From: Albidovulum aestuarii
GTDB lineage: Bacteria; Pseudomonadota; Alphaproteobacteria; Rhodobacterales; Rhodobacteraceae
DNA: 64,000 nucleotides
Assembly: GCF_029961185.1 (NCBI RefSeq)
Contig: NZ_JASBQQ010000003.1
Location: 434,001 to 498,000 of the forward strand
Direction of reading: 5' to 3'
The notes below the pieces were generated by a model. The model saw nothing but the letters and a program-made list of their open reading frames with translations, made no database searches and was not told the origin of the DNA. Position 1 is the first letter of the stretch. Every line of letters starts with the position of its first letter. The translations under genes and the position numbers were made by a program. Of the stretch, positions 3,535-32,601 are shown piece after piece.

Positions 3535-5160
3535 ATGGCGCTGACCAACGGGCGCGGCGGGCAACGGTTCTCGGGCAATATCTGGCCCGGCTTCGTCGAT
3601 GCGATGACCGCGCTTCTGATGGTGCTGATGTTCGTGCTGACGATCTTCATGATCGTGCAGTTCACCTTGCGCGAGACCATCGACAATCAGGATGACGAGC
3701 TTGCCGATCTGGCCCAGCAGGTGGCCGGACTGGCCGACGCGCTCGGGCTGGAGCGGGACCGGTCGGCGGCGCTCGAGGGCGAGGTTGCCGGGCTGACCGC
3801 AGATCTGGACACCACCCGCGCCGAGGCGGACCGGCAATCGGCGTTGATCGCGACGCTGACGCGGCAGGTCGAGGAGCGGGACAGCCAGCTTTCCGAAGCC
3901 TCGGCCCGGATCACCTCGTTCGAAGCGCAGGTTGCGACGTTGCTCAGTGAACGTGATACCGCGCGGGGCGAGGCAGAGGCGCTGACGGCAGAGCGCGATG
4001 CCCTCTCGTCCGAGCGCGATTCACTGGTATCCGAACGAGATGCGCTGAACCTTGCCGTCGCCAAGGCGCGGTCCGAGATCGACGCCCAGGCCGAGGCCGC
4101 ACGCCTTGCCGCTGCGCGGAGGGAGGCCCTGGACGCGCTGGTGGCGGATCTGAAAGCACAGGGCGAGGAGGCGGCGGAGAAGCTGTCCGAGGCCGAGGCT
4201 GCGCGCCTGACCGAGGCCGCTGCCACCGCCGCCTTGCGCGAGAAGCTTCAGGGCGCCGAGGATGAGCTGACCGCTATGACGCTGGCGCTGGAAGAACAGC
4301 GCCGTCGCGCCGAAGAGACGCTGACGCTGCTGGCGGCCGCCAATGCGCGGGCCGGGGAGGAACTGAGCGAGGCCGAGCGGCAGAAGGTGCTTCTCGACAC
4401 CGCGAACGAAGAGCTGGCCAAGGAAAAGGCCGCCTCGGCCGAGGCCGCGCGCAAGGTGGCGCTGTTGAATGAGCAGATCGTGGCGTTGCGCGGCCAGCTT
4501 GGCGCATTGCAGGACCTGATGGACGCGTCCGACGCCCGCGATGCCGAAGCCAAGGTGCAGATCGAAGCGTTGGGCACGCGGCTCAACTCCGCGCTTGCCC
4601 AGGTTGCGGCGGAACAGAAACGCCGCGCCGAGCTTGAGGAGGCGGAGCGGATCAGGCTGGAGGCCGAGGCTGCGGCGTTGAAGGAGGAAACCAAGGAACT
4701 GGCGCAGTACCGGTCGGAATTCTTTGCCCGCCTCAGCAAGGTTCTTGAGGGGCGCCAGGGAGTTCGCGTCGTGGGCGACCGCTTCGTGTTCTCGTCCGAG
4801 GTGCTCTTTGAACCGGCTTCGGCGGATCTTGCGCCCGAGGGGCGCAGCCAGATTGCCGGCGTCGTTGCCACGCTGCAGGAAGTGGCCGCCGAGATACCGC
4901 CCGAGGTGGACTGGATCATCCGGGTCGACGGTCACACCGACAATGTCCCGCTGCTCGGAACGGGCCGCTATCGCGACAACTGGGAACTAAGCCAGGGTCG
5001 GGCCCTGTCGGTCGTGCGCTTCATGCAGGCGGGTCTCGGCTTTCCGCCTGAGCGGCTCGCCGCGACCGGATTTGGCGAGTATCATCCGGTGGCCGAGGGC
5101 GACAGCCCCGAGGCATTGGCGCAGAACCGGCGGATCGAACTGAAACTGACCGAACGCTAG
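3535..5160 (+). CDS. MotB-like protein with long coiled coil and OmpA domain
   Basis: This 541-residue protein begins with a cytoplasmic tail and one membrane helix (about 18-43). Asp22, in the motif FVDAMT at the membrane edge, sits where MotB carries its proton-accepting aspartate. Residues about 45-395 are an almost uninterrupted Ala/Glu/Arg-rich coiled coil, far longer than the linker in MotB. The C-terminus (about 405-541) is an OmpA-like peptidoglycan-binding domain with the motif DGHTDNVPL near residue 464. Together with the preceding MotA/TolQ-like partner it should form a wall-anchored, ion-driven stator or rotor unit. What it drives cannot be told from the neighbourhood. Family assignment is secure; function is inference. 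Confidence 0.85.
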   Translation: MALTNGRGGQRFSGNIWPGFVDAMTALLMVLMFVLTIFMIVQFTLRETIDNQDDELADLAQQVAGLADALGLERDRSAALEGEVAGLTADLDTTRAEADRQSALIATLTRQVEERDSQLSEASARITSFEAQVATLLSERDTARGEAEALTAERDALSSERDSLVSERDALNLAVAKARSEIDAQAEAARLAAARREALDALVADLKAQGEEAAEKLSEAEAARLTEAAATAALREKLQGAEDELTAMTLALEEQRRRAEETLTLLAAANARAGEELSEAERQKVLLDTANEELAKEKAASAEAARKVALLNEQIVALRGQLGALQDLMDASDARDAEAKVQIEALGTRLNSALAQVAAEQKRRAELEEAERIRLEAEAAALKEETKELAQYRSEFFARLSKVLEGRQGVRVVGDRFVFSSEVLFEPASADLAPEGRSQIAGVVATLQEVAAEIPPEVDWIIRVDGHTDNVPLLGTGRYRDNWELSQGRALSVVRFMQAGLGFPPERLAATGFGEYHPVAEGDSPEALAQNRRIELKLTER

Positions 5161-25669: not shown

Positions 25670-27673
25670 TCAATCCGGCAATCCGGCCTTCCTGAGCCCG
25701 CCCGCCAGATGTTCCCAATCGCCCGGATTACGCCACATCGGCCGGTAGGCGCCCGCAAGGCTCTCGACCGTATCGTTCTGAATGATAATGTCCCGGCTCG
25801 CGAATTCCCGCCTCCGCATGCGGATGAACTCCGAGAGGGCCGCGTCCGCTTCGTGCGTCTGGCCAAGATGGGCATAGGCGCTGACCAGAAAGGCATGGGC
25901 GAGCGAATTCAGCAGCGCCTCGCCGATCAACACCTGCACGACAGCCCCATAGTCGCCCGTGAAGAAGCGAATCTGGCCAAGAGTCCAGTCGATCGAGGGC
26001 GAATGCAGCGGGTCGAGCCGGATCGCTTCCTGCACAACTTCAAGCGCCTTCTCCCGTTGGCCGAGGAGCAGGAACGCATAGCCACACCAGGCCATCGATT
26101 CCGCCTCGTTCACGATCTTCGAAAGAGTTTTTTCGAACTGAACCTCGGCCTCGTCCCAGAGCCCTTCGCAGAGGAACGCGTAGCCAAGTTGGTCCTGGAT
26201 ATAGACGTCGTTGTTGTCGAGCCCCGCGCCCTTGCGCGACAGGGCGAGAGACTTGCCCGCTGCACCTTCCTCTGCGAGGCCGAGCCATCCATCGACCACA
26301 TAGGTATCGGCAAGGTACATGTAGGCACGGGCATAGCGCGGGTCGAGCTCCAGCGCCTTCCTGAACAACTCGCGGGCCTCGACGGTGTCCTCTGCATTCA
26401 GCCCGTCGCGCAGCGACTTGCCGCGCAGCATGTATTCATAGGCCTTCATGTTCTCGGTCGGCATACGCAACGCGCGGTCGGCCACATCCTCCTGCACCCG
26501 TCCGGGCAGGACGGCGACGATGCTGCGCGTCACCTCATCCTGCACGGCGAAGATGTCGTCGAACTCCCGGTCATAGCGCTCCGCCCAGACATGGTTGCCG
26601 GTCAGGGCGTCGGCGAGTTGCACCGAGATACGGACTTTAGTCCCGGCGCGACGCACGCTGCCCTCGACAACGTATTCGACGCCAAGCCGCTGGCCGATTT
26701 CGCGAACGCCGAGGTTTTCATGGCGGATTGCGAATGAGGAGTGGCGGGCGACCACAAACAGTGTCCGGAACCGCGACAGGCCGGTGATGATGTCCTCGGT
26801 AATCCCGTCGCTGAAGTAATCCTGTTCAGGATCACCGCTCATATTGGTGAAGGGCAGCACCGCGACCGAGGGCTTGTCACGCGGTCGGGCGGCTGCGGTT
26901 ACCGGTGGCGCAGGGGTGGCCTCTGGGGTGGCGGGCTCGTCGGGGGCGCTGCGGATGCGGCCGATCAAGGCGGTGGTTTCCGGTCCCGGCTGAATGCCGA
27001 GATCTTCTAAAAACACCTCCCGCATCCTGTCGTAGTGCCGGAGCGCCGTTGCGGTTTCGCCCTGCGCATGAAGGACCCGCAGCACTAGCCGATGCGCTGC
27101 TTCGTTGAGCGCGTCGAGGTCAAGAAGCCTGCGGGCTGCCGTAAGTGCTGCGGAAAAGTTCCTTTCGCCGAGAAGATCCTCGGCGATCCGGGCAAGCTCC
27201 GACGACAGGAGGGCTGTGTATTTTGCGCGCTCGGCGGTCAGCCAGCCCTCGAACGGTGCCTCGTTGACTGTCAGCCCGGCAAGCAGGGTTGATGCTGCCA
27301 CGAGATCGTCGCGCCGCTGCGCGGCACCCTGTGGCGGGGTTTCTTTGCCAAGCGCGTCGACATCCAGTGCGACGGCATCGGACCGCAGCCCGAGCACCGG
27401 CCCACGTGTTTCGATCACCTCGGCATCAGCGCCAAGCGCCTTGCGCAGGCTCGCAAGCGATTGGCGGAGATTGGTCCGCGCCTGCACCTGACCGCTGCGG
27501 CTCCACAAAAGGTCAGCCGCGGTATCGCGATGCAGCCCGCCCGGCCCGGCCAGTGCGATCATCGCCAGAAGAGCCTGCGATTTCTGCGTCGGGAAGGATG
27601 CGGGCGTCCCGTCGCTGCATGTAACCGCCAGCGGACCCAGTAGCCGGATATTAAGGCGATTACGTCTGGTCAC
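25670..27673 (-). CDS. BTAD-type transcriptional regulator with TolB-like and TPR domains
   Basis: The 667-residue protein has an N-terminal OmpR-like winged helix (about 8-100) followed by a bacterial transcriptional activator domain (about 105-245, SARP/DnrI-like). A Pro/Ala linker leads to a TolB-N/FlgO-like domain (about 270-380) starting PSVAVLPFTNMSGD, and then TPR repeats to the C-terminus. This layout is frequent in Rhizobiales and Rhodobacterales, where such proteins are often annotated as adenylate-cyclase-like, but no cyclase domain is present. It reads divergently from the 64-residue ORF at 27820, a likely target. Inducer unknown. Confidence 0.85.
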   Translation of the reverse strand: MTRRNRLNIRLLGPLAVTCSDGTPASFPTQKSQALLAMIALAGPGGLHRDTAADLLWSRSGQVQARTNLRQSLASLRKALGADAEVIETRGPVLGLRSDAVALDVDALGKETPPQGAAQRRDDLVAASTLLAGLTVNEAPFEGWLTAERAKYTALLSSELARIAEDLLGERNFSAALTAARRLLDLDALNEAAHRLVLRVLHAQGETATALRHYDRMREVFLEDLGIQPGPETTALIGRIRSAPDEPATPEATPAPPVTAAARPRDKPSVAVLPFTNMSGDPEQDYFSDGITEDIITGLSRFRTLFVVARHSSFAIRHENLGVREIGQRLGVEYVVEGSVRRAGTKVRISVQLADALTGNHVWAERYDREFDDIFAVQDEVTRSIVAVLPGRVQEDVADRALRMPTENMKAYEYMLRGKSLRDGLNAEDTVEARELFRKALELDPRYARAYMYLADTYVVDGWLGLAEEGAAGKSLALSRKGAGLDNNDVYIQDQLGYAFLCEGLWDEAEVQFEKTLSKIVNEAESMAWCGYAFLLLGQREKALEVVQEAIRLDPLHSPSIDWTLGQIRFFTGDYGAVVQVLIGEALLNSLAHAFLVSAYAHLGQTHEADAALSEFIRMRRREFASRDIIIQNDTVESLAGAYRPMWRNPGDWEHLAGGLRKAGLPD

Positions 27674-29578: not shown

Positions 29579-32056
29579 TCAGCCGCATTTGGAATGGCCG
29601 CAGGACGGGCAGGTCATGCAGCCTTCGATCATCTGCATGCCGTATTGCCCGCAGGAAGGGCAGGCGGGGCCGCGCGGTGTTTCGCCCACTGCAATGACCT
29701 CGGCCTTGGGATCGGATTTGAGGCCTAACCCTTCGCCCTCGATGAAGCCGATGGCGATCATGTGGCGTTCGATCACGCCGCCGATGGCCGCGAGGATCGA
29801 GGGGATATAGCGGCCCTGCATCCACGCCCCCCCGCGCGGGTCGAAGACGGCCTTCAGTTCCTCGACCACGAAGGACACATCGCCCCCCCGCCGGAACACG
29901 GCCGAGATCATGCGGGTCAGCGCCACGGTCCAGGCGAAATGCTCCATGTTCTTGGAGTTGATGAAGACCTCGAAGGGTCGCCGGTGGCCGCCCTGTACGA
30001 TGTCGTTGATCGTGATGTAAATCGCGTGTTCGCTGTCGGGCCATTTCAGCTTGTAGGTCGCGCCTTCGAGCGTCTGTGGCCGGTCCAAGGGTTCGGAGAG
30101 ATAGATCACATCGCCATGCGGGGTGAGCGGTTCTGAGCCGTCCTTGGAGAGGACTTCTGGACCCGATCCCTCACCAAAACGCAGCCAAGCCGGTTTAACC
30201 GACAAAACCTCCGCCAAATTTTCAATCTTACCGAACTTTTCGAGACCTTCGTTTTCGAGTTTGGATATTGTTGCTTGATTTACATCCAATAGATCCGCAA
30301 GCGCAGCTTGAGACAACCCTTTAGCCTTCCGCGCGGACTTCAGCCGACTTGCCGAATCTGACGTCTCGACGCTCAACACACTCCCCGTCACCGCGTTCGG
30401 GCGGTACGTGGTGCAGCCCTTGCAGCCCTGATCCCAGGCCGCCATGTAGACGTCCTTGAACGCGTCAAAGCTGATTTCCTCGGGGCAGTTGATGGTCTTC
30501 GAGATCGACGAATCCACCCATTTCTGCGCCGCCGCCTGCATGCGGACATGATCGAGTGGCGGGAGCGTCTGGGCGTTGACGAAATGATCGGGCAGGGGCT
30601 TGTCGCCAAAGCGTTCGCGCCAAAGGTGATAGGCGTAATCGACAACCTCTTCCTCGGTCCGCGAGCCGTCCTTTTGCAGCACCTTGCGGGTATAGGCATA
30701 GGCAAAGACCGGCTCGATCCCCGACGAGACATTGCCCGCGTAAAGGCTGATTGTGCCGGTCGGCGCGATGGAGGTCAGGAGCGCATTGCGGATGCCGTGT
30801 TTGGCAACGGCGTCCCGCACATCCGCATCCATCTGCATCATATTGCCCGAGGTGAGGTATTTTTCGGCGTCGAAGAGGGGAAACGCCCCCTTTTCCTTCG
30901 CCAGTTCCACCGAGGCGAGATAAGCCGCCCGCGCAATGCGGTGCATCCATTTTTCGGTCTGTTCCGCCGCCTCTTCCGAGCCGTAGCGCAGGCCGACCAT
31001 CAGAAGCGCATCGGCCAGCCCGGTGACGCCAAGGCCGATCCGCCGTTTGGCCTGCGCCTCTGCCTCTTGGCTCGCGAGCGGGAAGCGCGAGGCATCGACG
31101 GTATTGTCCATCATGCGGACGGCGGTGGCGACGATCTCGTCAAGCGAGGTTTCGCAGAGATGGGCGCGGTCCTCGAACGGATACCAGACGAGCCGGGCGA
31201 GGTTGACCGACCCCAGAAGGCAAGCGCCATAGGGCGGCAGGGGCTGTTCGCCGCAGGGATTGGTGGCGGCGATGGTTTCCACATAGTTCAGGTTGTTCGC
31301 GGCATTGATGCGGTCGATGAAGATCACGCCCGGCTCGGCGTAATCATAGGTCGCCCGCATGATCCGGTTCCACAGATCGCGCGCCTGAAGGGTTTTGTAA
31401 ACCTTGCCGCCGAAGGTCAGCTCCCACGGGCCATCGGCCTTCACCGCCGCCATGAACGGGTCGGTGACGAGGACGGAAAGGTTGAACATGCGCAGCCGCG
31501 CGGCGTCCTGCTTGGCGGCGATGAAATCCTCGATATCGGGATGATCGCAGCGCATGGTGGCCATCATCGCGCCCCGGCGCGAGCCTGCCGACATGATCGT
31601 GCGGCACATCGCGTCCCAGACATCCATGAACGACAGGGGGCCGGAGGCGTCGGCGGCGACGCCCTTCACCTCGGCGCCCCTTGGCCGGATGGTGGAGAAG
31701 TCATAACCGATGCCGCCGCCCTGCTGCATCGTCAGCGCGGCCTCTTTCAGACCGTCGAATATGCCGCCCATGTCGTCGGGGATCGTGCCCATGACGAAGC
31801 AGTTGAAGAGCGTGACGGTGCGGCCGGTGCCAGCGCCTGCGGTGATGCGGCCCGCGGGCAGGTATTTGAAATCCTCAAGGGCTTCGTAGAAGCGGTCCTC
31901 CCAAGCGGCGGGGTCCTTTTCGACCGAGGCGAGCGCCCGGGCGATCCGCCGCCAGGAATCCTCGACCGTGCCGTCGATGGGCGTGCCGTCCGCCTGCTTG
32001 AAGCGGTATTTCATGTCCCATATCTGCTCGGCAATGGGGGCGGCGAAACGGGTCAT
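29579..32056 (-). CDS. nrdJ: Adenosylcobalamin-dependent ribonucleotide reductase with embedded HTH domain
   Basis: This 825-residue class II reductase converts ribonucleoside diphosphates to deoxy forms using adenosylcobalamin, with no oxygen requirement. The core shows TLFNCFVMGT, the active-site NPCGEQPLPPYGACLLGSVNL, and PTGTISLYAGNVSSGIEP. The C-terminus carries a Cys-rich region (CPSCGQYG...GCMTCPSCGHSKC) that can reduce the active site or bind zinc. Unusually, residues about 566-630 are a complete XRE/Cro helix-turn-helix (RLKSARKAKGLSQAALADLL, then QATISKLE and WLRFGEG) placed where relatives have only a short disordered linker between TYRPNAVTGSVLSV and GDVIYLSEPLDRP. The insert is in frame and less GC-rich than its surroundings. 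Enzyme identity is certain; the HTH function is unknown. Confidence 0.95.
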   Translation of the reverse strand: MTRFAAPIAEQIWDMKYRFKQADGTPIDGTVEDSWRRIARALASVEKDPAAWEDRFYEALEDFKYLPAGRITAGAGTGRTVTLFNCFVMGTIPDDMGGIFDGLKEAALTMQQGGGIGYDFSTIRPRGAEVKGVAADASGPLSFMDVWDAMCRTIMSAGSRRGAMMATMRCDHPDIEDFIAAKQDAARLRMFNLSVLVTDPFMAAVKADGPWELTFGGKVYKTLQARDLWNRIMRATYDYAEPGVIFIDRINAANNLNYVETIAATNPCGEQPLPPYGACLLGSVNLARLVWYPFEDRAHLCETSLDEIVATAVRMMDNTVDASRFPLASQEAEAQAKRRIGLGVTGLADALLMVGLRYGSEEAAEQTEKWMHRIARAAYLASVELAKEKGAFPLFDAEKYLTSGNMMQMDADVRDAVAKHGIRNALLTSIAPTGTISLYAGNVSSGIEPVFAYAYTRKVLQKDGSRTEEEVVDYAYHLWRERFGDKPLPDHFVNAQTLPPLDHVRMQAAAQKWVDSSISKTINCPEEISFDAFKDVYMAAWDQGCKGCTTYRPNAVTGSVLSVETSDSASRLKSARKAKGLSQAALADLLDVNQATISKLENEGLEKFGKIENLAEVLSVKPAWLRFGEGSGPEVLSKDGSEPLTPHGDVIYLSEPLDRPQTLEGATYKLKWPDSEHAIYITINDIVQGGHRRPFEVFINSKNMEHFAWTVALTRMISAVFRRGGDVSFVVEELKAVFDPRGGAWMQGRYIPSILAAIGGVIERHMIAIGFIEGEGLGLKSDPKAEVIAVGETPRGPACPSCGQYGMQMIEGCMTCPSCGHSKCG
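30167..30361 (-). other. In-frame XRE helix-turn-helix segment inside nrdJ
   Basis: The segment encodes about 65 residues of a Cro/CI-type DNA-binding domain ending in the WLRFGEG motif typical of phage-repressor N-domains (usually WLLTGEG). By hand count bases 30181-30300 are 51/120 G+C (about 42%), against roughly 60% or more in flanking nrdJ. No stop or frameshift is present at either edge. Confidence 0.85.
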
Positions 32057-32169
32057 CGTGCGGCAATCCTCGGTCTTTGGGAAGGCTTGTCACGATACGC
32101 GGACCTGCCGCTCCGGTCAACTTGATCTCGTGGGCCGGGGGCGTAGAATGGCAAGGTCTTGGGGGTGAC

Positions 32170-32601
32170 ATGACCGGATTCGTCCATCTTCTGAAGCTCT
32201 GCGTCGGCGCGGACAGCGTCGATGACCTGCTCGACTGGCAGCGCACCCATCCCGCGCCCTATGCCACGGGCGAGCGCCGCCACGTCACAAGGATGTGGCC
32301 GAAGCGCGAGGCCGAGATTCTGGCGGGCGGGTCGCTATACTGGGTGATCAAGGGCGTGATCCTCTGCCGCCAGCGGATCGTCCGGCTGGACGAGGTCGAC
32401 CGGGGCGATGGCATCCGCCGCTGCGGCATCGTGATGGACCCGGAGATTGTGCGGACCGAGGCCGCGATGCGCCGCCCGTTTCAGGGCTGGCGTTATCTCG
32501 ACCCCAAGGACGCGCCGCGTGACCTGCCGAAGGGGCGTGGGACGGATACCGCGCTGCCCGAGGAGATGGCGCTGGCCTTGGCCGAGATCGGGCTGCGGTG
32601 A
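32170..32601 (+). CDS. DUF1489 family protein
   Basis: The 143-residue cytosolic protein matches the alphaproteobacterial DUF1489 pattern: MTGFVHLLKLCVGADSVDDL at the N-terminus, then RHVTRMWPKR, LYWVIKGVILCRQRI and RPFQGWRYLDPKDAP. Function is unknown. The ATG at 32170 is preceded by GGGGTG and is preferred to an upstream in-frame start that overlaps the nrdJ promoter. It is divergent from nrdJ and convergent with hisG, with a strong palindrome between. Confidence 0.82.
   Translation: MTGFVHLLKLCVGADSVDDLLDWQRTHPAPYATGERRHVTRMWPKREAEILAGGSLYWVIKGVILCRQRIVRLDEVDRGDGIRRCGIVMDPEIVRTEAAMRRPFQGWRYLDPKDAPRDLPKGRGTDTALPEEMALALAEIGLR

Follow-up and report, generated by a model that had tools for sequence, protein, structure and literature searches.

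Combinations of a metabolic enzyme with a DNA-binding domain are well known from trigger enzymes such as PutA, BirA and NadR, in which the fusion is stable and the operators are known. The ribonucleotide reductase NrdJ described here likewise joins a metabolic enzyme to a DNA-binding domain; unlike in PutA, BirA and NadR, however, this domain differs between sister species. In type I restriction systems, HsdS is a specificity-exchanging locus, and NrdJ shares with it a constant frame around a hypervariable DNA-recognition segment that varies by allele. The host protein is, however, a biosynthetic reductase, and the genome holds no silent cassette with the same 5′ flank, as this 20-base flank occurs exactly once and the next best site has 3 mismatches. 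We know of no kind of gene in which a central biosynthetic enzyme carries a hypervariable, exchangeable DNA-binding domain.

The domain itself resembles the N-domain of the 434 and lambdoid CI repressors (PF01381, PF07022), with which it shares Gln at the 434 positions 17 and 28 and a predicted five-helix fold, its closest viral relative being the N-domain of a phage-contig repressor. It differs from them in lacking an S24 domain, in lying inside an enzyme and in that a search upstream of its gene showed no operator. The enzyme corresponds in its barrel, its TSCPD domain and its terminal cysteines to the class II NrdJ proteins with an IscU-like and a zinc-finger C-terminus (PMC9669993). There, section 2.4 describes an IscU-like fold at the TSCPD-equivalent region of class II reductases, a region for which the name TSCPD is absent from the text. 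The main text of that paper, which deals with insertions and extensions of ribonucleotide reductases, contains none of the terms helix-turn-helix, HTH, DNA-binding (or DNA binding), XRE and repressor. A literature search, with most subscription papers and bioRxiv outside its scope, found no report of a helix-turn-helix (HTH) domain in a ribonucleotide reductase, which is consistent with the statement of the first-pass annotation that no precedent had been described.

In the window, i.e., the whole 64 kb stretch of DNA that was analysed, nrdJ is an 825 aa reading frame without interruption (Table 1). Its product matches the class II model TIGR02504 with 578 bits (E 2e-173; curated cut-off 400) and has NrdJ of T. 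maritima as its best solved relative (E 8.5e-82). This relative was also on top of a Foldseek search with the whole NrdJ model, in which the best 50 matches listed were reductases only. Adenosylcobalamin-dependent activity is predicted from family membership, and the C-terminal cysteine cluster likely comprises a zinc finger and a re-reducing cysteine pair, by analogy with PMC9669993. No splicing or endonuclease domain, as would mark an intein or homing element, is among the 10 whole-protein Pfam matches (E ≤ 0.1). The same genome encodes a second class II reductase (1230 aa, PRK07562; G000:C17:158500-164500, L485 684-4376, minus strand) without HTH match, and most genomes of the genus contain frames of at least 1000 aa with a similar match. 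Due to this second reductase the HTH-bearing NrdJ may be non-essential and changes in it less costly. The near neighbours of nrdJ include a saccharopine-dehydrogenase-like gene, hisG and hisS; judged on these near neighbours, there is no prophage immunity region with a cro-like gene beside it. Two genes downstream, positions 25670-27673 of the minus strand encode a protein resembling SARP/TPR-type regulators (weak AfsR and TPR matches).

Table 1. Features of nrdJ and its upstream region (positions of the window).
Feature	Position	Strand	Basis
nrdJ, predicted adenosylcobalamin-dependent (class II) ribonucleotide reductase with HTH	29579..32056	-	ORF, TIGR02504, T. maritima NrdJ, Foldseek
Upstream region of nrdJ with TTGACC and GCGTATC	32057..32170	-	Genus alignment of 17 rows
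RNR catalytic barrel PF02867, aa 85-551	30404..31804	-	Pfam
Exchangeable cassette, about aa 563-632, from VTGSVLS to PEVLSKDG	30161..30370	-	Nucleotide alignments and linker survey; boundaries approximate
434/CI-type HTH domain, aa 566-628	30173..30361	-	Pfam HTH_3, 434 repressor, AlphaFold2, G+C
Recognition helix (third helix), aa 594-603 of model	30248..30277	-	AlphaFold2 and gapless 434 repressor alignment
Conserved tail of type-2 linker, PEVLSKDGSEPLTPHGD, aa 633-649	30110..30160	-	Linker survey and alignments
TSCPD (IscU-like) domain, aa 668-766	29759..30055	-	Pfam
C-terminal cysteine cluster, aa 799-825	29582..29662	-	Invariant cysteines in 50 NrdJs

The first-pass annotation had placed a phage-repressor-like HTH domain at 30167-30361, in frame in the NrdJ linker. 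This segment is aa 566-630, and the claim is borne out by Pfam HTH_3, which matches aa 572-625 between barrel and TSCPD domain (E 5e-9 with the full-length protein as query, 9e-11 with the segment by itself), and by the N-domain of the 434 repressor, which aligns over 57 residues without gaps (E 4e-4). The recognition helix, whose degeneration would have spoken against a function, is not degenerate in this alignment. The structure prediction that had been proposed as a check (AlphaFold2, 50 NrdJ sequences) yields five helices at aa 568-579, 583-590, 594-603, 611-618 and 622-627, with a pLDDT of 82-96 for ten-residue blocks across aa 571-620 and low confidence for the arms at aa 554-566 and 629-663; the model of the whole protein is of moderate quality (mean pLDDT 64, pTM 0.62). 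Sequence profile and predicted fold thus both identify a Cro/CI-type HTH (HTH_3, PF01381), for which sequence-specific DNA binding is predicted from the alignment of its recognition helix. Pfam finds no Peptidase_S24 domain in NrdJ, in contrast to phage CI repressors with their C-terminal S24 domain, and PADLOC matches lie exclusively within the HTH (aa 566-633; RmrA, HTH_VI, capH), with nothing beyond a generic HTH. The base composition also sets the domain apart: 30167-30361 has a G+C content of 48.2% compared to 63.5% for the remainder of nrdJ. The first-pass annotation had put the local value near 42%; the exact minimum over 120 bases is 40.8% (30175-30294), the lowest such value of the window and matched nowhere else in it.

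For comparison, NrdJ linkers of the family Rhodobacteraceae and its near kin were surveyed at 300 loci, which are not a random sample and cover only part of the 350 family genomes with a match. A script read 278 of them, giving 261 distinct linkers. The remaining 22 loci comprise six that are not NrdJ (L044-L048 and L306), one with a frame break (L041), one read separately (L210, no HTH) and 14 others, 12 of which were read by eye and have no HTH (L283 has the tail), while L371 and L385 were left out of the counts. This comparison of close relatives, suggested as a check in the first-pass annotation, revealed an insert of at least 60 aa in 51 of the 261 distinct linkers, a tail ending in ...PHGDV (or a near form) without HTH in 29, and a shorter linker without either in 181. 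HTH_3 matches 47 of the 51 inserts at E ≤ 0.01 (36 of 40, 10 of 10 and the tandem insert of L158); the other four align with HTH-positive ones, and two of them scanned singly (L014, L112) match other HTH models at E 0.06. Domains other than HTHs were not seen among the 51 inserts, which are HTHs of many kinds with the same cassette classes (named A-F and X, as assigned by eye) recurring across genera. By source, an HTH is present in 35 of 202 linkers of the one-per-genus family set (6 of 59 in an evenly picked part of it), in 8 of 18 from the genus and in 8 of 41 from named genomes. A further 29 alphaproteobacterial loci are more distant (47-57% identical), many of them with no name more precise than Alpha- or Proteobacteria; the linker was readable in 22, and none of these has an HTH or room for one. 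Linker L158 (genome G138) is 190 aa long and holds two unlike HTHs in tandem, each of which, by eye, represents a class found singly elsewhere. In L041 (genome G030) the frame breaks in the linker right after the HTH and the TSCPD domain goes on in another frame, which might be an error or a natural split. L109 and L192 have a long additional linker past the HTH, which in L192 includes a Gly-Glu repeat run.

The contrast between linker and flanks is most pronounced within the genus of the window species, where one genome per species was compared. In 22 genomes the flanks of NrdJ are alike and the linker contains unlike HTHs (L009, the window species, to L013 and L015), another HTH-like type (L014, L016) or none (L017-L025). 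Across 28 pairs from the eight HTH species the flanks are 95% identical, but the HTH cores 27%. For 39 cassettes (741 pairs) mean core identity is 26.9% (19.4% after shuffling) and mean flank identity 81.4%, the two being uncorrelated (Spearman 0.04, P 0.31); at least 50% core identity is shared by 22 of these pairs, and L014 and L016 share 73%. The window species and its sister L010, which has another HTH, are 99% identical in the flanks and 23% in the cores; in their nucleotide alignment similarity stops after ...GTGTTGAG and returns at ...GAAGTCCTCTCC, so that the exchangeable cassette is the portion of nrdJ that is unlike the sister species. In the barrel tree L009 (A-type HTH) and L010 (C-type HTH) form a clade with L017, a sister without HTH (support 100/99), and L015, which has an HTH, groups with L021 and L023, which have none (100/98). 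The genus barrel tree of 17 rows requires at least 6 changes of HTH presence, with 7 of its 14 inner branches open (12 of 14 in the right-hand tree). In the tree of the family, built from 195 of the 261 rows, presence changes 35 times, compared to a mean of 40.1 and a range of 35-44 in 300 shuffles, and class changes 27 times among 44 (shuffles 25-33). As this near-random scatter partly reflects the low resolution of 195 of 261 rows of a conserved protein, the case for turnover rests more on the genus tree, despite its open branches.

The inserts also deviate in composition: in 50 of 51 cases their GC3 is lower than in the flanks (median -0.24); short linkers lean weakly in the same direction (median -0.04, 69% below). 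The case that all Rhodobacterales NrdJ proteins carry the same domain with normal base composition, which would have made it an old and ordinary feature, was hence not encountered: HTHs are unlike or absent, and their GC3 is low. These comparisons are best read as revealing that the linker between barrel and TSCPD domain of NrdJ in Rhodobacteraceae is a slot for gain, loss and exchange of HTHs, at a rate far above that of the rest of the gene. The 434/CI-type HTH of the window has probably arrived recently. The first-pass annotation was thus right in proposing capture of a mobile domain, yet this was not one event, since the slot is recurrent and hypervariable. The sister species L017 and L009/L010 are also unlike in the tail of their linkers (type 1 or type 2), so that exchange may involve the linker as a whole.

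The inserted HTHs are, as judged from their sequences, kept rather than decaying. An alignment of 52 domains, to which L158 contributes two, has a hydrophobic residue in all rows at the positions corresponding to 434 residues 6, 20, 31, 45, 48 and 52. In 23 hand-chosen within-class pairs, many of them saturated, dN is 0.16-0.65 and dS is 0.76-2.45 in 11 and saturated in 12, in line with purifying selection. The recognition helix does vary, with no evident excess of variability at DNA-contact positions over other exposed positions of the 52 domains.

Regarding the origin of the cassettes, the best IMG/VR match to the HTH of the window (L258, about 60% identical) is the N-terminal domain of a repressor encoded on a phage contig; this repressor also has an S24 domain, and its gene is accompanied by a small, divergently oriented reading frame. 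It was thus a repressor-type DNA-binding domain that was taken in frame into NrdJ and kept, as had been assumed. Searched with its flanks, the window cassette hits 199 phage records (E ≤ 0.01), with a phage repressor on top (49%), and in PHROGs one regulator family matches 36 of 40 inserts and one repressor family 35. Four other cassettes were compared with IMG/VR; a relative was found for one of them only, and it is weak (35%). Among 50,697 phage records no match reached E ≤ 1e-4 with twelve cassettes joined as one query, and five joined gave nothing at E ≤ 1e-6 in plasmids, which is weak evidence as spacers and mixed composition can hide matches. Within the genus a single close free homologue was found (40%). 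In 394 family genomes, nearly one per genus, the five best relatives of this HTH all lie in other NrdJ-sized frames, one of them in G030, where the frame is broken past the HTH. When 198 genomes were searched at E ≤ 1e-7, the relatives fell within such frames in 5 of 5 cases for cassette L146 and 4 of 7 for L182. As relatives mostly lie in NrdJ-sized frames, the cassette pool would circulate among nrdJ genes rather than come fresh from known phages. It seems that repressor domains entered nrdJ and that the pool now moves among nrdJ genes, for which homologous exchange via the conserved flanks would be the simplest route. A phage-borne NrdJ was considered as vector: 28 of 80 viral loci were viewed, of which 26 have the end-of-barrel motif and none has an HTH, the reading of L409 ending directly after this motif.

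What the domains do is a more speculative matter. Our tentative preference, held with somewhat less than even confidence, is that the HTH in the slot constitutively represses phages or other mobile DNA, without an S24 domain. The type of domain, which is that of phage-operator binders, the missing S24 domain, the location in a housekeeping enzyme and the conflict-like turnover all point in this direction. The solved relative of this NrdJ type is a dimer, and a dimeric NrdJ would present two HTHs on flexible arms, which could reach and bind palindromic operator-like DNA. The targets would be foreign operators instead of nrdJ, and NrdJ would be an always-present repressor that acts on temperate phages upon infection or on other mobile elements and that, being S24-less, would not be RecA-cleavable. 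Rivalry with changing phages would then drive HTH turnover. More doubtfully, Rhodobacteraceae might use NrdJ as the carrier of a chromosomal immunity repressor without S24 domain. Alleles with new cassettes would spread when nrdJ genes recombine, as part of an arms race with temperate phages, phage-plasmids or gene transfer agents; a phage could not simply destroy such a repressor because it needs the products of the reductase. Several points speak against a repressor: viral relatives are scarce for the other cassettes, the cassette pool seems to circulate among nrdJ genes instead of coming from known phages, DNA-contact positions are not extra variable, PADLOC reports a generic HTH only, most NrdJs (all but 35 of the 202 one-per-genus linkers) have no HTH, NrdJ is possibly dispensable given the second class II reductase, and the upstream region of L010 is more divergent than that of L017. 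If immunity were the function, phage resistance would be hidden in housekeeping annotation, with a defence-gene library picking up no more than a generic HTH, and the natural alleles of the sister species would be ready-made tests. The presence, swaps and absence of the HTH suggest a reductase that doubles as a fast-changing DNA-binding, perhaps antiviral, device.

Alternatively, an HTH with general affinity for DNA could tether the reductase to the nucleoid or the replication fork and raise the local dNTP supply. Localised dNTP synthesis had also been suggested in the first-pass annotation, and the comparisons speak neither for nor against it. HTHs would then be interchangeable, as the exact sequence bound would be irrelevant, which fits with inserts of many HTH kinds and with a conserved core whose surface is free to vary. 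However, a tether leaves unexplained why it is swapped or lost between species with 95% identical flanks and why repressor N-domains are used instead of non-specific binders, and we regard it as unlikely. If true, it would be evidence of selection placing dNTP synthesis at DNA.

It is likewise improbable that the domains are neutral passengers, i.e., common phage HTH genes captured and lost without function by a disordered linker that tolerates small domains. Linker length is indeed free (17 to 190 aa), and the nearly scattered presence on the family tree would be expected. Yet all inserts match HTH_3 or align with those that do, to the exclusion of any other kind of domain, their core is conserved with dN below dS within classes, and the same cassette classes occur in different genera. 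Even neutral capture would offer a rare view of domain acquisition at species scale, and "disordered linkers" in other conserved enzymes merit the same scrutiny.

A third alternative, that NrdJ moonlights as a regulator of unlinked host genes in the manner of a trigger enzyme and couples the dNTP state to transcription, appears quite improbable: the intact recognition helix in an enzyme with a dimeric solved relative would suit it, but a host regulon should fix one HTH type among sisters, and the type changes within one close clade. A single ancient insertion with vertical inheritance and fast evolution is very hard to credit, as core identity is uncorrelated with flank identity, unlike classes and absence occur inside one clade and GC3 deviates, even though several HTH alleles of the genus have common 5′ codons around GTGACGGGGAGTGTGTTGAG as well as the tail PEVLSKDG and cassette classes are common to several genera.

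HTH proteins often repress their own genes, and autoregulation of nrdJ had been proposed for this domain. The upstream regions of the genus argue against it, making this a highly improbable role. The region upstream of nrdJ in the window and that of L017, which has no HTH, agree at 121 of 125 positions, and autoregulation is for this reason unlikely. The lower similarity of L010, which has a different HTH (96 of 125), speaks for autoregulation, but across the 17 genus rows, whatever their linker, the motif TTGACC is present in all and GCGTATC in 13. A search upstream of nrdJ for exact inverted repeats of at least 6 bases, with a gap of up to 8, found none, and no HTH-dependent operator, as a trigger enzyme or autoregulator would have, was seen at the promoter in 17 aligned upstream regions. 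The near-identical upstream region, the kept motifs and the missing inverted repeat suggest that the targets of the HTH are probably elsewhere than at nrdJ. The surroundings of nrdJ in L014 are distinguished by a tRNA-Gly gene (4095-4168) just downstream, which scans of three other loci (L009, L010 and L017) did not find there, and, by eye, by a stretch resembling a tRNA 3′ end just upstream; together these might be the remnant of an integration.
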